Shown one piece after another: positions 29,006 through 36,504 of a stretch of DNA of 64,000 bases. The notes under the pieces are model-generated. The model made no database searches. It worked only from the letters and a program-made list of their open reading frames with translations, and was not told where the DNA came from. Every line of letters begins with the position of its first letter. Within the stretch, counting starts at the first letter, position 1. Origin of the DNA: Uliginosibacterium aquaticum (GTDB taxonomy: Bacteria > Pseudomonadota > Gammaproteobacteria > Burkholderiales > Rhodocyclaceae); the NCBI RefSeq assembly GCF_012972705.2, contig NZ_JABCSC020000001.1:310001-374000 (forward strand). Reading direction: 5' to 3'. Both the position numbers and the translations under genes were made by a program.

Positions 29006-29974
29006 TCAGCGCAGGCCGATGTCGAAGTACACCACTTCGGCACCGACCTCGGTCGGCGAGTAGCCGAAGGCGATGCGGCCGCGCAAGGGCAGGTCCGCTT
29101 CGCCACGGCGCAGCACCACTTCGTTGCCGGCATCGTCGACCATGAAGGTGCCGTTGGTGCTGGTGTCGATCAGCACGAAGTGGTTGTGCCGCCACTCGAT
29201 GCGGGCGTGATGGCGCGAGGCGCGGCGATCAGCAATGACCAGATCGTTGCCTTCCTCGCGGCCGGCCAGCACCACTGGCTGGTTGTCCGAGACCGACAGG
29301 GTGTTCTTGTTGTGGCGCAGCATCAGTGAAGTACGCTGAGGCGCTGTGGCGGCCTGGTTGAAGACCGGCGACTGGCTGTGCGGGGCCGTGTCAAAAGCGT
29401 GCTGATCCAGGGCCAGTGAGGTGGAGGTCGGTGCGAAAGCTTCGACCACGCTGGGCGCGGCGGCCGGCGTGTGGCCCGGACGGAAAACATAGGCTTGCTG
29501 AGCAAAGCCGGCAACCTGTTCCGGGGAAAGCTGGCTGCGCACGTTGTCGGGCATGGCGTTGGCGCCCTCGCTGCTGACCAGGACCTGATCCGCCGGGGCC
29601 AAGGCGACCAGTTTGCGGGCATCGGCAATGACGGCATCGGCCGGTTGCTGGCTCATGGCATCCAGATTGCCCGCATGAATCGCAACCTGTACAGAGAGAG
29701 CTACGCCGGAGACCGGCGGCAACTGCTTGACGCGTGCGCGCAGGTCGAAGGCGGCCAGGGCGGCATTCTCGCCGCGTGGGAAGTGGGCGATCAGGGTGCG
29801 GCCGTCGGCCTGCACGATGTAGCCGCGGTAGGCGTCTATGGAGCGCTCTGCGCGGTTGCGGCAGCGCTCGACGGCGCGTTGGGTTTCCACTGCGCCCAGT
29901 TTGCCGAGCAGCGGCGCATCGCCGGTGACTTCGGCGATGAGCACGCAGGTGTCAGGAGTGGGCTGGCTGGTCAT
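29006..29974 (-). CDS. FHA-domain protein with a degenerate cyclase-like N-terminal domain
   Basis: 322 residues from the ATG at 29974. Residues 1-170 follow the class III adenylate/guanylate cyclase fold ([51 protein letters not shown]), but the metal-binding Asp pair and transition-state residues cannot be found. The C-terminal FHA domain is canonical: [26 protein letters not shown] and STNGTFMV, a phosphothreonine-binding surface. It overlaps ttcA by 23 bases and meets glmS tail to tail with no gap. Role unknown; it may read Ser/Thr phosphorylation. Confidence 0.82.
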
Positions 29975-31079: not shown

Positions 31080-32318
31080 TCAGCTTTCGCTGCGCCGACC
31101 CACCTGGATGCCCAGTTGCTTGAGCTTGCGGTAGAGGTGGGTGCGTTCCAGTCCGGTTTTCTCGGCCAGACGGGTGATGTTGCCGTCTTCGAGTTGCAGG
31201 TGGTGCTCGAAATAGATGCGTTCGAAGGTTTCACGCGCCTCGCGCAGCGGCAGATCCAGCGGCAGGGCGAGCGCTGCACTGGAGGCGCGGGAGACGAAGC
31301 GCACGACCTCATCGGCATTGATCTCGTCTTCCAGAGAACCAAGGGCCAGCGAGCGCACGGCGGCCTTCAGTTCGGGAAAGCCGCCGCCCCAGGGGCTGTT
31401 GCGCAGCGCGTTGAGTGCGCCGGTAGACAGCGTGCGTACTGGCACGTCACCGGTTTCGGCCAGATGTTGGAGGAGCTGGGTGACCATCTCGGGCAGCTCA
31501 TCCTTGAGCTCCAGCAGCGAGGGCGGCACCAGCGACACTTCAAACAGGCGGCGGACCAGCAACGGATCCCAGCCTTCCACGAGCAGTTCGTCGGCCGTGC
31601 GCGAGCAGGCGGCGAGCAGGCGTTGATCGTGTTTTTCGAGGCGATCAAGGGCGAAGGCGAGGTTCTTCTGCTGGGCGCGATTGAGCAGGCTCAGGTCTTC
31701 GATGAAGAGCATGCCGCCGCGCGCGGCCTCAAGATTCTGGATTTCGATCGGTTGGCCGAAGCTGCCCAGGTCCAGCCAAGGGCTACCCGCTGCCTGCAGG
31801 CTGCGGGCGCACAGTTCGGCCAGCGAGCCGGCGCCCACGCGCAGCAGCAGCACACGGCTCTTCTGGCAGAGCTGATCAAGGCGGCGGCGCAGATCGCGCA
31901 GTGGCGTGGAGCGAGTGAAGGCGTTCAGTGTGAGGTGAGTCTGGGCCTTGCTGGGCTGGCGCTGCAGGCCACGCTTGACGGTGGCAAGGAGCTTTTGCAG
32001 GGCGATCGGCTTTTCGAGAAAGTCCAGGGCACCGAAGCGGATCGCTTCCACCGCGGTATCGATGGTGCCGTGGCCGGACATCATGATCACCGGCATCGAC
32101 AGCAGGCCGGAGGCCGCCCATTCCTTGAGCAGGGTGACGCCATCAGTGTCCGGCATCCAGATGTCCAGCAGAACCAGATCCGGCCGTGCCGCCTGGCGGG
32201 CACTGCGGGCTGCCGTGGCATTTTCGGCAAGGATCACGTCGTAACCCTCGTCGCAGAGAATCTCCCGCAACAGTTCACGGATACCGATTTCGTCGTCAAC
32301 AACCAGAATCTTTGCCAT
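31080..32318 (-). CDS. ntrX: NtrX-like response regulator with degenerate AAA+ domain
   Basis: 412 residues. The receiver has ILVVDDEIGIRELL, the phospho-acceptor Asp52 in VLLDIWMPDTDG, and Lys in DFLEKPIALQKLL. The central region aligns by position with NtrC-type AAA+ domains, but the Walker A site reads RVGAGSLAELCA with no GKE/GKS. The part that should hold GAFTGA is missing, and the Walker B equivalent is GGMLFIEDLS. A Fis-type helix-turn-helix ends the protein (NITRLAEKTGLERTHLYRKL). It should bind DNA but not hydrolyse ATP or activate sigma-54. ntrY lies 25 bases upstream. Confidence 0.9.
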   Translation of the reverse strand: MAKILVVDDEIGIRELLREILCDEGYDVILAENATAARSARQAARPDLVLLDIWMPDTDGVTLLKEWAASGLLSMPVIMMSGHGTIDTAVEAIRFGALDFLEKPIALQKLLATVKRGLQRQPSKAQTHLTLNAFTRSTPLRDLRRRLDQLCQKSRVLLLRVGAGSLAELCARSLQAAGSPWLDLGSFGQPIEIQNLEAARGGMLFIEDLSLLNRAQQKNLAFALDRLEKHDQRLLAACSRTADELLVEGWDPLLVRRLFEVSLVPPSLLELKDELPEMVTQLLQHLAETGDVPVRTLSTGALNALRNSPWGGGFPELKAAVRSLALGSLEDEINADEVVRFVSRASSAALALPLDLPLREARETFERIYFEHHLQLEDGNITRLAEKTGLERTHLYRKLKQLGIQVGRRSES

Positions 32319-32343: not shown

Positions 32344-34479
32344 TCAATTTGTTGTCGTTTCGCCCGGCGGCGTGGCGTCGAGCTTGGCCAGTCGCAGGCG
32401 CAGTTTTACTTCGGCACCGCCCTCGGGGCGATTGGCGATGAAAATCTCGCCACGGTGTTCCTCGATGATCTTGCGCACGATGGCCAGCCCCAGGCCCGAG
32501 CCGCGCGGCTTGGTGGTGACATAGGGCTCCATGGCGCGGCTGAGGATGTTGGGCGGGAAGCCACTGCCGTTGTCACGCACCACCAGCTCAACGCGCTTGC
32601 CATCCAGGCGCGTGACCAGTTCAACCAGCGGGGCCGTATGCTCGGCCACGGCATCCTGCGCGTTCTGTAGCAGGTTGTGGATGACCTGGCGCAACTGGCT
32701 GGCATCAGCCTGCACCAGGGGCAGGCCGGTAGCGAGGATCGGGCCGATCGGCACGGGCGCGGCTTCATACAGCATCAGCACTTCGCGCAGCAGGGCATTG
32801 AGATCCAGCGGGGCGAGCTGCGGCGCCGGTAGCCTGGCGTAGTCACGGAAGCCATTGACCAGGTTCTTCATGGCCTCGACCTGATTCACGATGGTCTGGG
32901 TGGAGCGATCGAGGAAGGCCCGGTCGGTGTCGCCCAGGCGGTCGGCCAGCTTGTGCTGCAGGCGTTCGGCGGAGAGCTGGATCGGTGTGAGCGGGTTCTT
33001 GATTTCGTGGGCCAGGCGGCGCGCCACTTCGGCCCAGGCTGCGTTGCGTTGTGCCGAGATGAGCTCGGAAATATCGTCGAACACCACCACGAAGCCGCCC
33101 GTGCTCTCGGGAAGCTGCGAGCCGTGCAGCAGCAAGGTCTGCACCGAGCCTTCGCCATGGGTGATTTCCAACTGACGGTGCCAGTCCGCCTCATGTTCGG
33201 CAAAGCCTGCCAGCACCGCATCGCGGAAGCTCAGGTGGGTCTGCCATTCGGCCAGGGGCACGGCTTCGAAGCCGATCAGATCGTCCTGCAGGATAGCGGT
33301 GGCTCCGCGGTTGGCTGCGCGCAGCTCGCCTTCGCTCGAGAAGGCCAGTACGCCGGCCGAGAGGTTGGCGAGCACGCTTTCCAGATAGGCCCGTGCGGCG
33401 TCGACAGCCGAGCGGTTTTTCTCGGCCAGTGCCCGCGCATCCTGCAACTGGCGGGTCATGCGGTTGAAGGATTGAGTCAGCACGCCCAGCTCGTCGCGGG
33501 CCGGCAAGGCTTGGCGTGGCGAGAGGTCGCCTGCCGCTACGGCCTGGGTGCCTTCGGCAAGGATCAGCAAGGGGGCCGAGAGTGAGCGCGCAAACAGGAA
33601 GGCTACTGCCATGGCGGCGAACATGGCCAGCAGCAGGGCCAGGGTCAGGGTCACGAGGTAAATGCTCTTGAGGCCCTGGCGCGAGAGCAGCAGTTCCTGA
33701 TAGTTGCGGTGCAGTTCCTGGATCTGGTCGGCGCTGTGGGCGAGTGCTTCCGGTACGGAGGCACGCACCTGCAGCAGCAAGGGGTCGACCTGCAGGAAGC
33801 GGCTCGGCACCGGTACGACCACACGCATCACGAGTTTTTCGCCCTCTCCTTCAACGGCACGATATCCCATCGATTGACGGGCCTGGCGCAGCTGAGCGGT
33901 GGCCGGTACGTCCGGCACCAGGCCGCCCTGCGCCGCGCCCGTGGAGCTGACAACGCGCCCGCTGGTGGTGAGGAGGGTGATCTCGTCGGCGTCGAGACGC
34001 TCGCGCAGGCGGATCAGGGCTGGCAGGCTGGGTGGGGTGAGCTGGTCGCCGAGCTCCAGGGCGACGTTGCGACTGCGCTCGGCCAACTGGTCGAGCAGGG
34101 CATCCAACGCGCTGCGACCGAGGGTGATGCCGGACTCCAGGGCCGAGTCAACGCGCACGTTGTACCAGGACTCGATCGAGCGCACCGCGAACTGCACAGA
34201 GATCACGTAGATCAGGGTGCCGGGAGCAATCGCGAGCAGCAGGAACATGCCGATCAGCTTGAGCTTGAGGCGGGAGCCGAACTGGCGCGAGCGGTATTCG
34301 ATCCACAGCTTGCGCAGTTGCAGGCCGACCAGCACCGCCAGCGCCACGGCCAGCGCAATGTTCAGCCCCAGCAGGACCGGATAGTTGTGGGCAAAGAGCG
34401 AGGAGTTGGCGCCTGCCGAGGCCAGCAGGAAGAGCAGGATGGCGCCCAGCGCGAGCACGACAATGAGCAGTCGCCTCAT
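32344..34479 (-). CDS. ntrY: NtrY-like membrane sensor histidine kinase
   Basis: 711 residues. Three hydrophobic segments near the N-terminus (about 4-22, 35-56 and 75-97) are followed by a periplasmic domain and a fourth TM (about 270-297, VTLTLALLLAMFAAMAVAFL). HAMP and PAS domains come next. The kinase core has H-box RRLAHEIKNPLTPIQLSAER, N-box NLLQNAQDAV and G-boxes DNGSGFP and GSGLGLAIV. It overlaps DUF4390 by 4 bases and precedes ntrX. Family members sense redox or nitrogen status; the signal here is unknown. Confidence 0.93.
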   Translation of the reverse strand: MRRLLIVVLALGAILLFLLASAGANSSLFAHNYPVLLGLNIALAVALAVLVGLQLRKLWIEYRSRQFGSRLKLKLIGMFLLLAIAPGTLIYVISVQFAVRSIESWYNVRVDSALESGITLGRSALDALLDQLAERSRNVALELGDQLTPPSLPALIRLRERLDADEITLLTTSGRVVSSTGAAQGGLVPDVPATAQLRQARQSMGYRAVEGEGEKLVMRVVVPVPSRFLQVDPLLLQVRASVPEALAHSADQIQELHRNYQELLLSRQGLKSIYLVTLTLALLLAMFAAMAVAFLFARSLSAPLLILAEGTQAVAAGDLSPRQALPARDELGVLTQSFNRMTRQLQDARALAEKNRSAVDAARAYLESVLANLSAGVLAFSSEGELRAANRGATAILQDDLIGFEAVPLAEWQTHLSFRDAVLAGFAEHEADWHRQLEITHGEGSVQTLLLHGSQLPESTGGFVVVFDDISELISAQRNAAWAEVARRLAHEIKNPLTPIQLSAERLQHKLADRLGDTDRAFLDRSTQTIVNQVEAMKNLVNGFRDYARLPAPQLAPLDLNALLREVLMLYEAAPVPIGPILATGLPLVQADASQLRQVIHNLLQNAQDAVAEHTAPLVELVTRLDGKRVELVVRDNGSGFPPNILSRAMEPYVTTKPRGSGLGLAIVRKIIEEHRGEIFIANRPEGGAEVKLRLRLAKLDATPPGETTTN

Positions 34480-35048
34480 CGCGGATCAGGCCCTTGAGCA
34501 AGGAAATTCCACTGCACCCAGCCGGTAGAGACATCCAGCTCGCGATTACCGAAGACCACGACCTGAAAGGGCTTGGGCAATTGCGACATGTCCAGCCGGA
34601 AACGCAGCGAGGCCTTGTAGGTCTCGCCGGGTGTGAGGCGGTTGCGGTCGATCACCGACCAGTTGCGGATCGATAGCAGGGCGCGCAGGGCATCCTCGAA
34701 GCTGCCGAAGCTGCGGTGGATGCTGCCTACCGAGAGGCGATACTGACGGGTGAGGGCGTGATAGGAGAGGCGGAAGTCCAGATTCCGCTCGACCACGCTC
34801 TCATCGAGCCAGTACCAGCGTGCGCGGGTCAGGGTGAATTCAGCCTGAAAGGGGATCGAAACCCCGCTGGCGATCATTTCCTCCAGGCGCGGATTGGCCT
34901 GCATCTCGAGCGACGCATTGACCACATACACCTGATCGACCGGGACGATCTCCTGGAAGCGGAAGTCCAGCCCCTTGCCGGCCGCCAGCGCGGCCGGCGC
35001 GCAGAGCAGCATGAAGCTCAGCAGCCACAGCCGGCGCAGCAGACACAT
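34476..35048 (-). CDS. DUF4390 exported protein
   Basis: 190 residues with a signal peptide, MCLLRRLWLLSFMLLCAPAA then LAAGKG. Conserved-looking parts are LEEMIASGVSIPFQAEFTLT, RWYWLDESV, HRSFGSFEDALRALLSIRNW and LDMSQLPKPFQV. The family is found almost only in the rsmB-DUF4390-ntrY-ntrX operon of betaproteobacteria, which supports a link to NtrYX signalling at the membrane; the role is not established. The start at 35048 is the only one with a signal peptide; the frame runs upstream into rsmB. It overlaps ntrY by 4 bases. Confidence 0.88.
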   Translation of the reverse strand: MCLLRRLWLLSFMLLCAPAALAAGKGLDFRFQEIVPVDQVYVVNASLEMQANPRLEEMIASGVSIPFQAEFTLTRARWYWLDESVVERNLDFRLSYHALTRQYRLSVGSIHRSFGSFEDALRALLSIRNWSVIDRNRLTPGETYKASLRFRLDMSQLPKPFQVVVFGNRELDVSTGWVQWNFLAQGPDPR

Positions 35049-35076: not shown

Positions 35077-36504
35077 TCAGGCGCTTTTCTCCAGCAGGGC
35101 GAAGTAGAAGCCGTCATGTTGCGCGGTGGGCAGCCAGTGTCTCTCGAATGTACCGTCCGGCAGGCGAGCGCGGCGGCAGTCCTTGTGGCGGGCGGCGAAG
35201 CGGGCGACCTGCCTTCCGTTCTCCTCTTCGAAGACGGAACAAGTGAGATAAAGCATTTTCCCGCCCGGCGCCAGCACTTGCCACAGGGCCTCGAGGATTT
35301 CGGCCTGAACCGTTGCAAAACCCGCAATGTCCTCTTCGCGGCGCAGCCACTTGATGTCCGGATGGCGACGCGCTACGCCCGAGGCGGAGCAGGGTACGTC
35401 GGCGAGGATGCGCTCGAAGGGCTGGCCGTTCCACCACTCGTCGAGATGGCGGCAGTCGGCCGTGCGGACTTCGGCAGAAAGGCCGAGGCGGGCAAGGTTG
35501 TCGCGCACGCGCTGGCTGCGCTTGTCTTCCACATCCAGTGCCAGCAAGGCGATGTCTGCGGACTCAAGCAGGTGAGCGGTCTTGCCACCGGGGGCGGCGC
35601 AGGCGTCCAGCACGCGCTGACCCGCGGCGAGATCCAGCAGCGCGGCCGCTTGCTGGGCGCCCCAGTCCTGCACCGAGACGCGGCCTTCGGCAAAGCCGGG
35701 CAGGCTGGAAACGGGCCGCGGTGTGTCGAGCTGAAGAGCCAGTGGGGCGAGTTCGGTGAAGGTGATTGCGGCCTCGGTGAGCTCGGCGCGGTAGGCGTCT
35801 GCGCTGCTGCGGCGCGGATTCACGCGCAGGCTCATCGGCGGGTGGGTGTTGTTGGCGGCCAGCAGGGCCTGCCAGTGCTCCGGATGCTGACGCTGTACGG
35901 CCTTGATCCACCAGGCGGCATGGCGCCAGTGCGCGGCGGGGTCGGCATCGGCGGCGGCAAGCAGGGCGGCCCACTGACGTAGCGCGTTGCGCAGCACGCC
36001 ATTGACCAGCGCCTTGAGGCGCCCCTCGGCGAGGCGGGCGGCGGCTTCAACGGCCTGATCGACGACGGTGTGGGCGGTGTCCGGCCGGGTTTCGAGGCGG
36101 TAGAGGGCAAGCAGCAGCAGAGCTTCGATGCGTGGCTCCTCAAGCGGCTTGCTGAGCAGCTTGGCGAGAATGAAGCTGCCGCGCCCGCAGTCACGTAGGG
36201 TGCCGTAGAGCAGATCCTGCACAGCGCCGCGGGTCGCCGGCAGCAGGTCCGGGTAGGCTTGCCACAGGCCCAGCAGGCCGTCGTTCAGCGCATAGCCCTT
36301 GAGCACGGCGGCAAGGCCATCGCTGGCAACCAGCAAGGCTTCGCCGAGCGTGCCGGCGGCCAGTGGTGGCAAGGCCGGGCCGCGTGGGCGGTGATCACGG
36401 GCTGGCGGGGGGGTACGGGAGTCCTGCGTGGGGCGGGAGCGGGCGGGGCCACGGCCGGTGGCCGGGCGGGCGCCGGTGCGGCGGGGGAAAGGTTTCTTGT
36501 CCAT
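35077..36504 (-). CDS. rsmB: 16S rRNA (cytosine967-C5)-methyltransferase RsmB
   Basis: 475 residues. The first 45 are a basic Pro/Arg-rich tail (RRTGARPATGRGPARSRPTQ) unlike the compact start of E. coli RsmB. A NusB-like domain follows, then the SAM methyltransferase core: VLDACAAPGGKTAHLLE binds SAM, and the two catalytic cysteines lie in DVPCSASGV and YLTCSVFEEEN. It heads the operon with DUF4390 and ntrYX. A TACAAT 6 bases upstream of the ATG hints at a very short or absent leader, which is weak evidence. Confidence 0.94.
   Translation of the reverse strand: MDKKPFPRRTGARPATGRGPARSRPTQDSRTPPPARDHRPRGPALPPLAAGTLGEALLVASDGLAAVLKGYALNDGLLGLWQAYPDLLPATRGAVQDLLYGTLRDCGRGSFILAKLLSKPLEEPRIEALLLLALYRLETRPDTAHTVVDQAVEAAARLAEGRLKALVNGVLRNALRQWAALLAAADADPAAHWRHAAWWIKAVQRQHPEHWQALLAANNTHPPMSLRVNPRRSSADAYRAELTEAAITFTELAPLALQLDTPRPVSSLPGFAEGRVSVQDWGAQQAAALLDLAAGQRVLDACAAPGGKTAHLLESADIALLALDVEDKRSQRVRDNLARLGLSAEVRTADCRHLDEWWNGQPFERILADVPCSASGVARRHPDIKWLRREEDIAGFATVQAEILEALWQVLAPGGKMLYLTCSVFEEENGRQVARFAARHKDCRRARLPDGTFERHWLPTAQHDGFYFALLEKSA

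Follow-up and report, generated by a model that had tools for sequence, protein, structure and literature searches.

The ntrX locus and its ATPase motifs

At positions 31080-32318, the window (a 64,000-nucleotide stretch of the Uliginosibacterium aquaticum genome) encodes NtrX, the partner of the adjoining NtrY kinase. The features of the locus are as follows.

31080..32318 (-): ntrX (plrR-like), 412 aa response regulator with a degenerate AAA+ domain; one intact ORF
31107..31247 (-): HTH of the Fis type, residues 358-404, whose recognition helix ERTHLYRK is unchanged across 66 orthologs (Pfam and alignment)
31281..31943 (-): degenerate AAA+ domain, residues 126-346, predicted to be folded, pLDDT 93 (structure prediction)
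31368..31391 (-): WGGGFPEL, remnant of sensor II without its Arg, residues 310-317 (alignment)
31545..31571 (-): R-finger region WDPLLVRRL, residues 250-258 (alignment)
31695..31718 (-): Walker B remnant GGMLFIED, residues 201-208 (alignment)
31743..31769 (-): deletion site of the L1/GAFTGA loop and its flanks, residues 184-192 (alignment)
31806..31841 (-): RVGAGSLAELCA, remnant of Walker A in which Ala takes the place of Lys, residues 160-171 (alignment)
31959..32318 (-): receiver domain, residues 1-120; D8, D9, D52, S81, and K103 invariant (Pfam and ortholog alignment)
32163..32165 (-): codon of the phospho-acceptor Asp52; Asp found in 220/220 aligned rows
32344..34479 (-): ntrY, sensor histidine kinase and cognate partner, 25 bp upstream of ntrX
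34476..35048 (-): plrP, DUF4390 periplasmic protein, with a 4-bp overlap with ntrY
35077..36504 (-): rsmB, 16S rRNA methyltransferase, a conserved neighbor

The first-pass annotation described this protein as an NtrX with a dead AAA+ domain, and both parts of the description hold. The identity follows from the pairing with NtrY and from the place of the gene in an rsmB-plrP(DUF4390)-ntrY-ntrX cluster, the order of the beta-type NtrX/PlrR that has been described for betaproteobacteria (PMC13001219). An NtrY-type kinase adjoins NtrX in 205 of the 227 loci compared, as it does in the window, and among the loci with enough flanking sequence, those with the long form of NtrX contain plrP in 74/75 cases and rsmB in 75/75, whereas plrP is present in 21/21 of those with the short form. 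The protein itself combines a receiver carrying the phospho-acceptor Asp with a Fis-type HTH, both complete, as had been claimed (Pfam E values of 3.5e-28 for the receiver and 6.6e-6 for HTH_8).

Five ATPase residues were scored, namely, the Walker A Lys, the Walker B Asp and Glu, the R-finger Arg, and the sensor II Arg, and none of the five is canonical in the window protein, although the AAA+ domain is so diverged that the exact residue at each catalytic position is uncertain in the alignment. The Walker A remnant, RVGAGSLAELCA, lacks the GK, as annotated, and the Walker B motif, also previously flagged as altered, is GGMLFIEDL, with D replaced by E and E by D. The R-finger segment is WDPLLVRRL where FREDLYYRL is expected, and sensor II is WGGGFPEL where WPGNVREL is expected. 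The GAFTGA region is deleted as reported, and about 20 further residues around the loop are missing. The protein lacks the Walker A/B motifs, the R-finger, and the GAFTGA loop of canonical sigma-54 enhancer-binding proteins, as well as the intact nucleotide-binding AAA+ domain of alpha and gamma NtrX; at the same time, it differs from the PlrR type, which has no AAA+ domain, in keeping a degenerate one.

In Pfam searches, the central domain yields a weak match to the sigma-54 activation family PF14532 (E 6.9e-17) and a match to the AAA+ lid; seven strong PF00158 domains (215-252 bits) are encoded elsewhere in the genome, and NtrX is absent among the PF00158 matches of this genome. The top NCBIfam model is NF051870 (NtrX), with an E value of 7e-64 but a score of 216 bits against a cut-off of 600 bits, and the top full-length PDB match is the Brucella NtrX 5m7n (E 2.6e-45). 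An artefact or a pseudogene is excluded, given that the ORF is intact, conserved, and subject to purifying selection.

Also at this locus, a gene at 29006-29974 (-) encodes a protein with a C-terminal FHA domain, the N-terminal ~150 aa of which resemble, by eye, a class III nucleotide-cyclase domain. A Pfam search of this protein gives no cyclase match, and it contains, perhaps, another degenerate enzyme domain beside ntrX.

Three grades of the AAA+ domain among NtrX orthologs

Orthologs were found in 61/61 near relatives, in 173/180 genomes drawn across the order, and in 119/185 genomes across the class. Same-genus orthologs (83-87% identity) have the same AAA+ degeneracy, and alignment with other betaproteobacterial NtrX, the check suggested in the first-pass annotation, showed that each of the 165 long orthologs from the order retains 0-2 of the five ATPase residues, the Walker A Lys being present in one only. 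An oddity of the window alone is thereby excluded: the decay of the AAA+ domain is a clade-wide trait, which the annotation had missed. The sole long beta ortholog with the Walker A Lys (L233 in genome G161, GEPGSGKRTC) sits among Lys-less relatives.

Gammaproteobacterial NtrX (L167-L195) are orthologous by sequence and usually have an adjacent ntrY, but are about 455 aa long and mostly retain the ATPase residues: among the 29 sequences, the Walker A Lys is found in 25, the R-finger Arg in 25, the sensor II Arg in 26, the Walker B Glu in 17, and the Walker B Asp in only 14. GAFTGA is missing from these proteins as well. The absence of this motif is a general trait of NtrX, a correction to the annotation, and the beta-specific change is the loss of the ATPase residues together with the larger loop deletion. 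From gamma to beta NtrX, mean conservation falls from 0.83 to 0.51 in the catalytic columns and from 0.68 to 0.54 in the other AAA+ columns. Single ATPase residues are lost in several gamma proteins, the Walker A Lys being missing in 4/29, and judging from these sequences, the erosion seems to start outside the beta lineage.

The AAA+-less orthologs (24 rows in 10 of the 51 sampled families) are 211-268 aa long, and in them, a Pro/Ala-rich linker of 21-76 residues joins the receiver to the HTH, domains that match those of the window protein at a mean of 76 and 70%, respectively. No AAA+ traces were found in these linkers by BLAST (best E 0.18), which consist of P/A/S/T/E by 56%. On the best tree, built from the receiver, the HTH, and the NtrY kinase core, the short forms require three changes; a single excision origin for all of them is not rejected (AU p = 0.20). 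Excision is limited to certain families, and most families of the order (about 40/51) hold the dead domain.

Beta NtrX are stated to lack the AAA+ domain in PMC13001219, citing Bonato 2016, so that the fully AAA-less form, which the annotation did not mention, is already present in the literature. That statement is to be refined into three grades: intact, dead but folded, and excised. We found no description of the intermediate grade in the literature examined, the scope of which did not extend to Bonato 2016, Fernandez 2017, and Atack 2013.

Several sequences in the survey stand apart. Three MAG contigs titled Bordetella parapertussis (L073, L074, and L083) encode long-form NtrX that branch far from the short-form clade, and these labels look wrong. 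Genomes G100 and G058 carry, in addition to a normal decayed NtrX, longer NtrX-like paralogs (L228 and L229, 613 and 505 aa in the respective rows) that retain the motifs in part (GESGTGREAF, FRRDL).

Selection, predicted fold, and sigma-54

The same-genus dN/dS is lowest for the HTH (0.04), followed by the receiver (0.08) and the AAA+ remnant (0.20); these values are rough because dS exceeds 1. Relative to the receiver and HTH, the AAA+ domain evolves at a rate of 2.9-3.2 in beta NtrX compared with 1.64 in gamma NtrX, that is, about twice as fast. In the remnant, 51 of the 65 hydrophobic core positions are retained. Fold comparison with the whole-chain model (pTM 0.57) did not show how the domains are arranged, the rmsd being about 18-20 A, and accordingly, the AAA+ domain was modelled alone; AlphaFold2 then predicted it with a pLDDT of 93 and a pTM of 0.87. 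Fold comparison of this model matched FleQ (Z 19.0), NtrC1 (Z 18.0), FlrC, Brucella NtrX (Z 17.3), and VpsR (Z 17.2), overall with Z of 17-19 and rmsd of 3.1-3.8 over about 208-216 residues. The non-catalytic residues G164, E168, A171, R172, W181, Q217, P266, R306, and W310 are 85-100% conserved in beta long forms; most of the conserved non-catalytic positions show the same conservation in gamma NtrX and look structural. From the sequences and the model, the remnant appears to be folded and to be under selection that is real, although weak, and it has no recognizable ATP site.

The window genome encodes rpoN, which excludes loss of sigma-54 as the driver of the decay in this genome. The sigma-54 gene was not detectable in three genomes that are 98-100% complete (G075, G120, and G124), all of which keep the long dead form, nor in G066, where NtrX is of the short form. 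Given that the long dead form persists in those three genomes without rpoN, the remnant does not depend on sigma-54. The claim of the annotation that NtrX is not tied to sigma-54 gains support, at the sequence level, because the ATPase residues and the sigma-54 loop are gone, AAA+-less orthologs exist, and the dead form occurs in rpoN-less genomes.

Proposed mechanism and alternative roles of the retained domain

We consider it highly probable that this protein regulates by binding DNA under the control of phosphorylation, independently of sigma-54 and ATP, and that its AAA+ remnant is a folded but catalytically dead spacer. NtrX is the response regulator in the NtrYX (PlrSR) two-component system of betaproteobacteria. 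Under this scheme, its D52 would be phosphorylated by NtrY, with modulation by PlrP; this would alter receiver pairing and hence how strongly the Fis-type HTH binds DNA, and NtrX would activate or repress ordinary sigma-70-class promoters by binding close by. ATP binding, hydrolysis, ring assembly, and sigma-54 remodelling would all lie outside this mechanism. The catalytic residues would have been lost no later than the common ancestor of the order, with the dead domain persisting as a folded spacer that preserves the geometry between receiver and HTH; a short flexible linker would have taken its place in several lineages, with three losses on the best tree.

Phosphorylation-controlled DNA binding is proposed because D8, D9, D52, S81, and K103, along with the helix ERTHLYRK, are invariant. 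In Bordetella, the ortholog PlrR, which has been described as lacking AAA+, is essential in vitro and requires D52 phosphorylation (PMC13001219). The ntrX gene of Azoarcus olearius, where the long form is expected from family membership, is putatively essential (PMC9769520), and that of Herbaspirillum seropedicae is a candidate for essentiality (PMC5086560). We infer action at sigma-70-class promoters, most likely through promoter-proximal binding, by analogy, because sigma-70 promoters are where non-canonical NtrC proteins without GAFTGA work (PMC10274813). We likewise put forward a lack of ATP binding and a role as spacer conditionally: weak nucleotide binding is still possible with a degenerate P-loop, another ligand for the remnant would be compatible with the sequence, and a spacer-only role leaves it unexplained why the domain is retained under selection in about 40/51 families and dropped elsewhere.

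Receivers and Fis-type HTHs are able to dimerize by themselves, which counts against the role given to the remnant in the annotation, that of a dimerization scaffold holding two protomers so that the HTH pair binds DNA. The AAA+ domain is not a general requirement for dimerization because the 24 short orthologs lack it, and these retain the receiver, the HTH, and the gene neighborhood. Such a scaffold is nevertheless a possibility of some weight, if not the favored one, considering that the remnant is predicted to be folded, is under purifying selection, and has among its closest fold matches the non-canonical enhancer-binding protein VpsR, for which a 'novel dimeric architecture' is described. 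Long retention under selection and the strong conservation of the non-catalytic residues listed above could instead reflect repurposing of the dead domain, which would then modulate NtrX by sensing another ligand or a protein, such as a nucleotide second messenger, PII, or a subunit of RNA polymerase; c-di-GMP is bound by FleQ and VpsR on related domains, according to PDB titles. We regard such repurposing as unlikely, given that gamma NtrX conserve most of these positions to the same degree and that lineages without the domain stay viable; if true, a repurposed module would explain retention in about 40/51 families as opposed to excision in the others.

Neutral decay toward deletion appears about equally improbable. 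The roughly twofold acceleration of the AAA+ domain and the occurrence of full excision, three times on the best tree, are what such decay would produce, but the dN/dS of the remnant is far below 1, its hydrophobic core is largely retained, its fold is predicted at high confidence, and a single reading frame persists across the order. Brucella NtrX reportedly binds nucleotide without hydrolysis, and nucleotide binding of this kind could have been kept as a conformational switch in the window protein, which belongs to the same family; the Brucella protein was crystallized with ATP and ADP (5m7n, 5m7p). However, Brucella NtrX retains GPSGAGKE and WPGNLRQL, whereas the window protein is altered at the Walker A Lys, both canonical Walker B acidic positions, the sensor II Arg, and the R-finger, so that a switch is the least credible of these readings, with only a slim chance of being correct.

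Compared with known systems, the regulator with a dead spacer that we favor shares with PlrR of Bordetella and the short NtrX of Herbaspirillum the operon (rsmB, plrP, ntrY/plrS), the receiver, the HTH, the phospho-Asp52, and, by inference, the lack of ATPase activity; PlrR-type proteins are without any AAA+ domain, whereas the window NtrX retains a dead one that is predicted to be folded. Brucella abortus NtrX (5m7n/5m7o/5m7p) is the best match in sequence and fold over the full length, with the same receiver-AAA+-Fis architecture and no GAFTGA, but keeps the Walker A Lys and the sensor II Arg, both of which the window NtrX has lost along with about 20 residues near loop 1. Uncoupling of an NtrC-type architecture from sigma-54 is also seen in the sigma-70 enhancer-binding proteins, that is, Caulobacter and Rhodobacter NtrC, VspR, and VpsR. 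The non-canonical proteins in PMC10274813 are defined by GAFTGA loss, and Caulobacter NtrC is predicted to still use ATP (PMC10274813), whereas the erosion in the window NtrX is broader and affects all ATPase motifs.

To say that beta NtrX are devoid of the AAA+ domain is a simplification that these observations correct, given that most of the sampled families hold a dead one. Within a fixed operon, a single orthologous, apparently essential regulator presents a natural series from an intact ATPase through a dead but folded domain to its excision, and with this series, domain swaps and deletions can be used to test how a motor-type enhancer-binding protein becomes a plain DNA-binding regulator.
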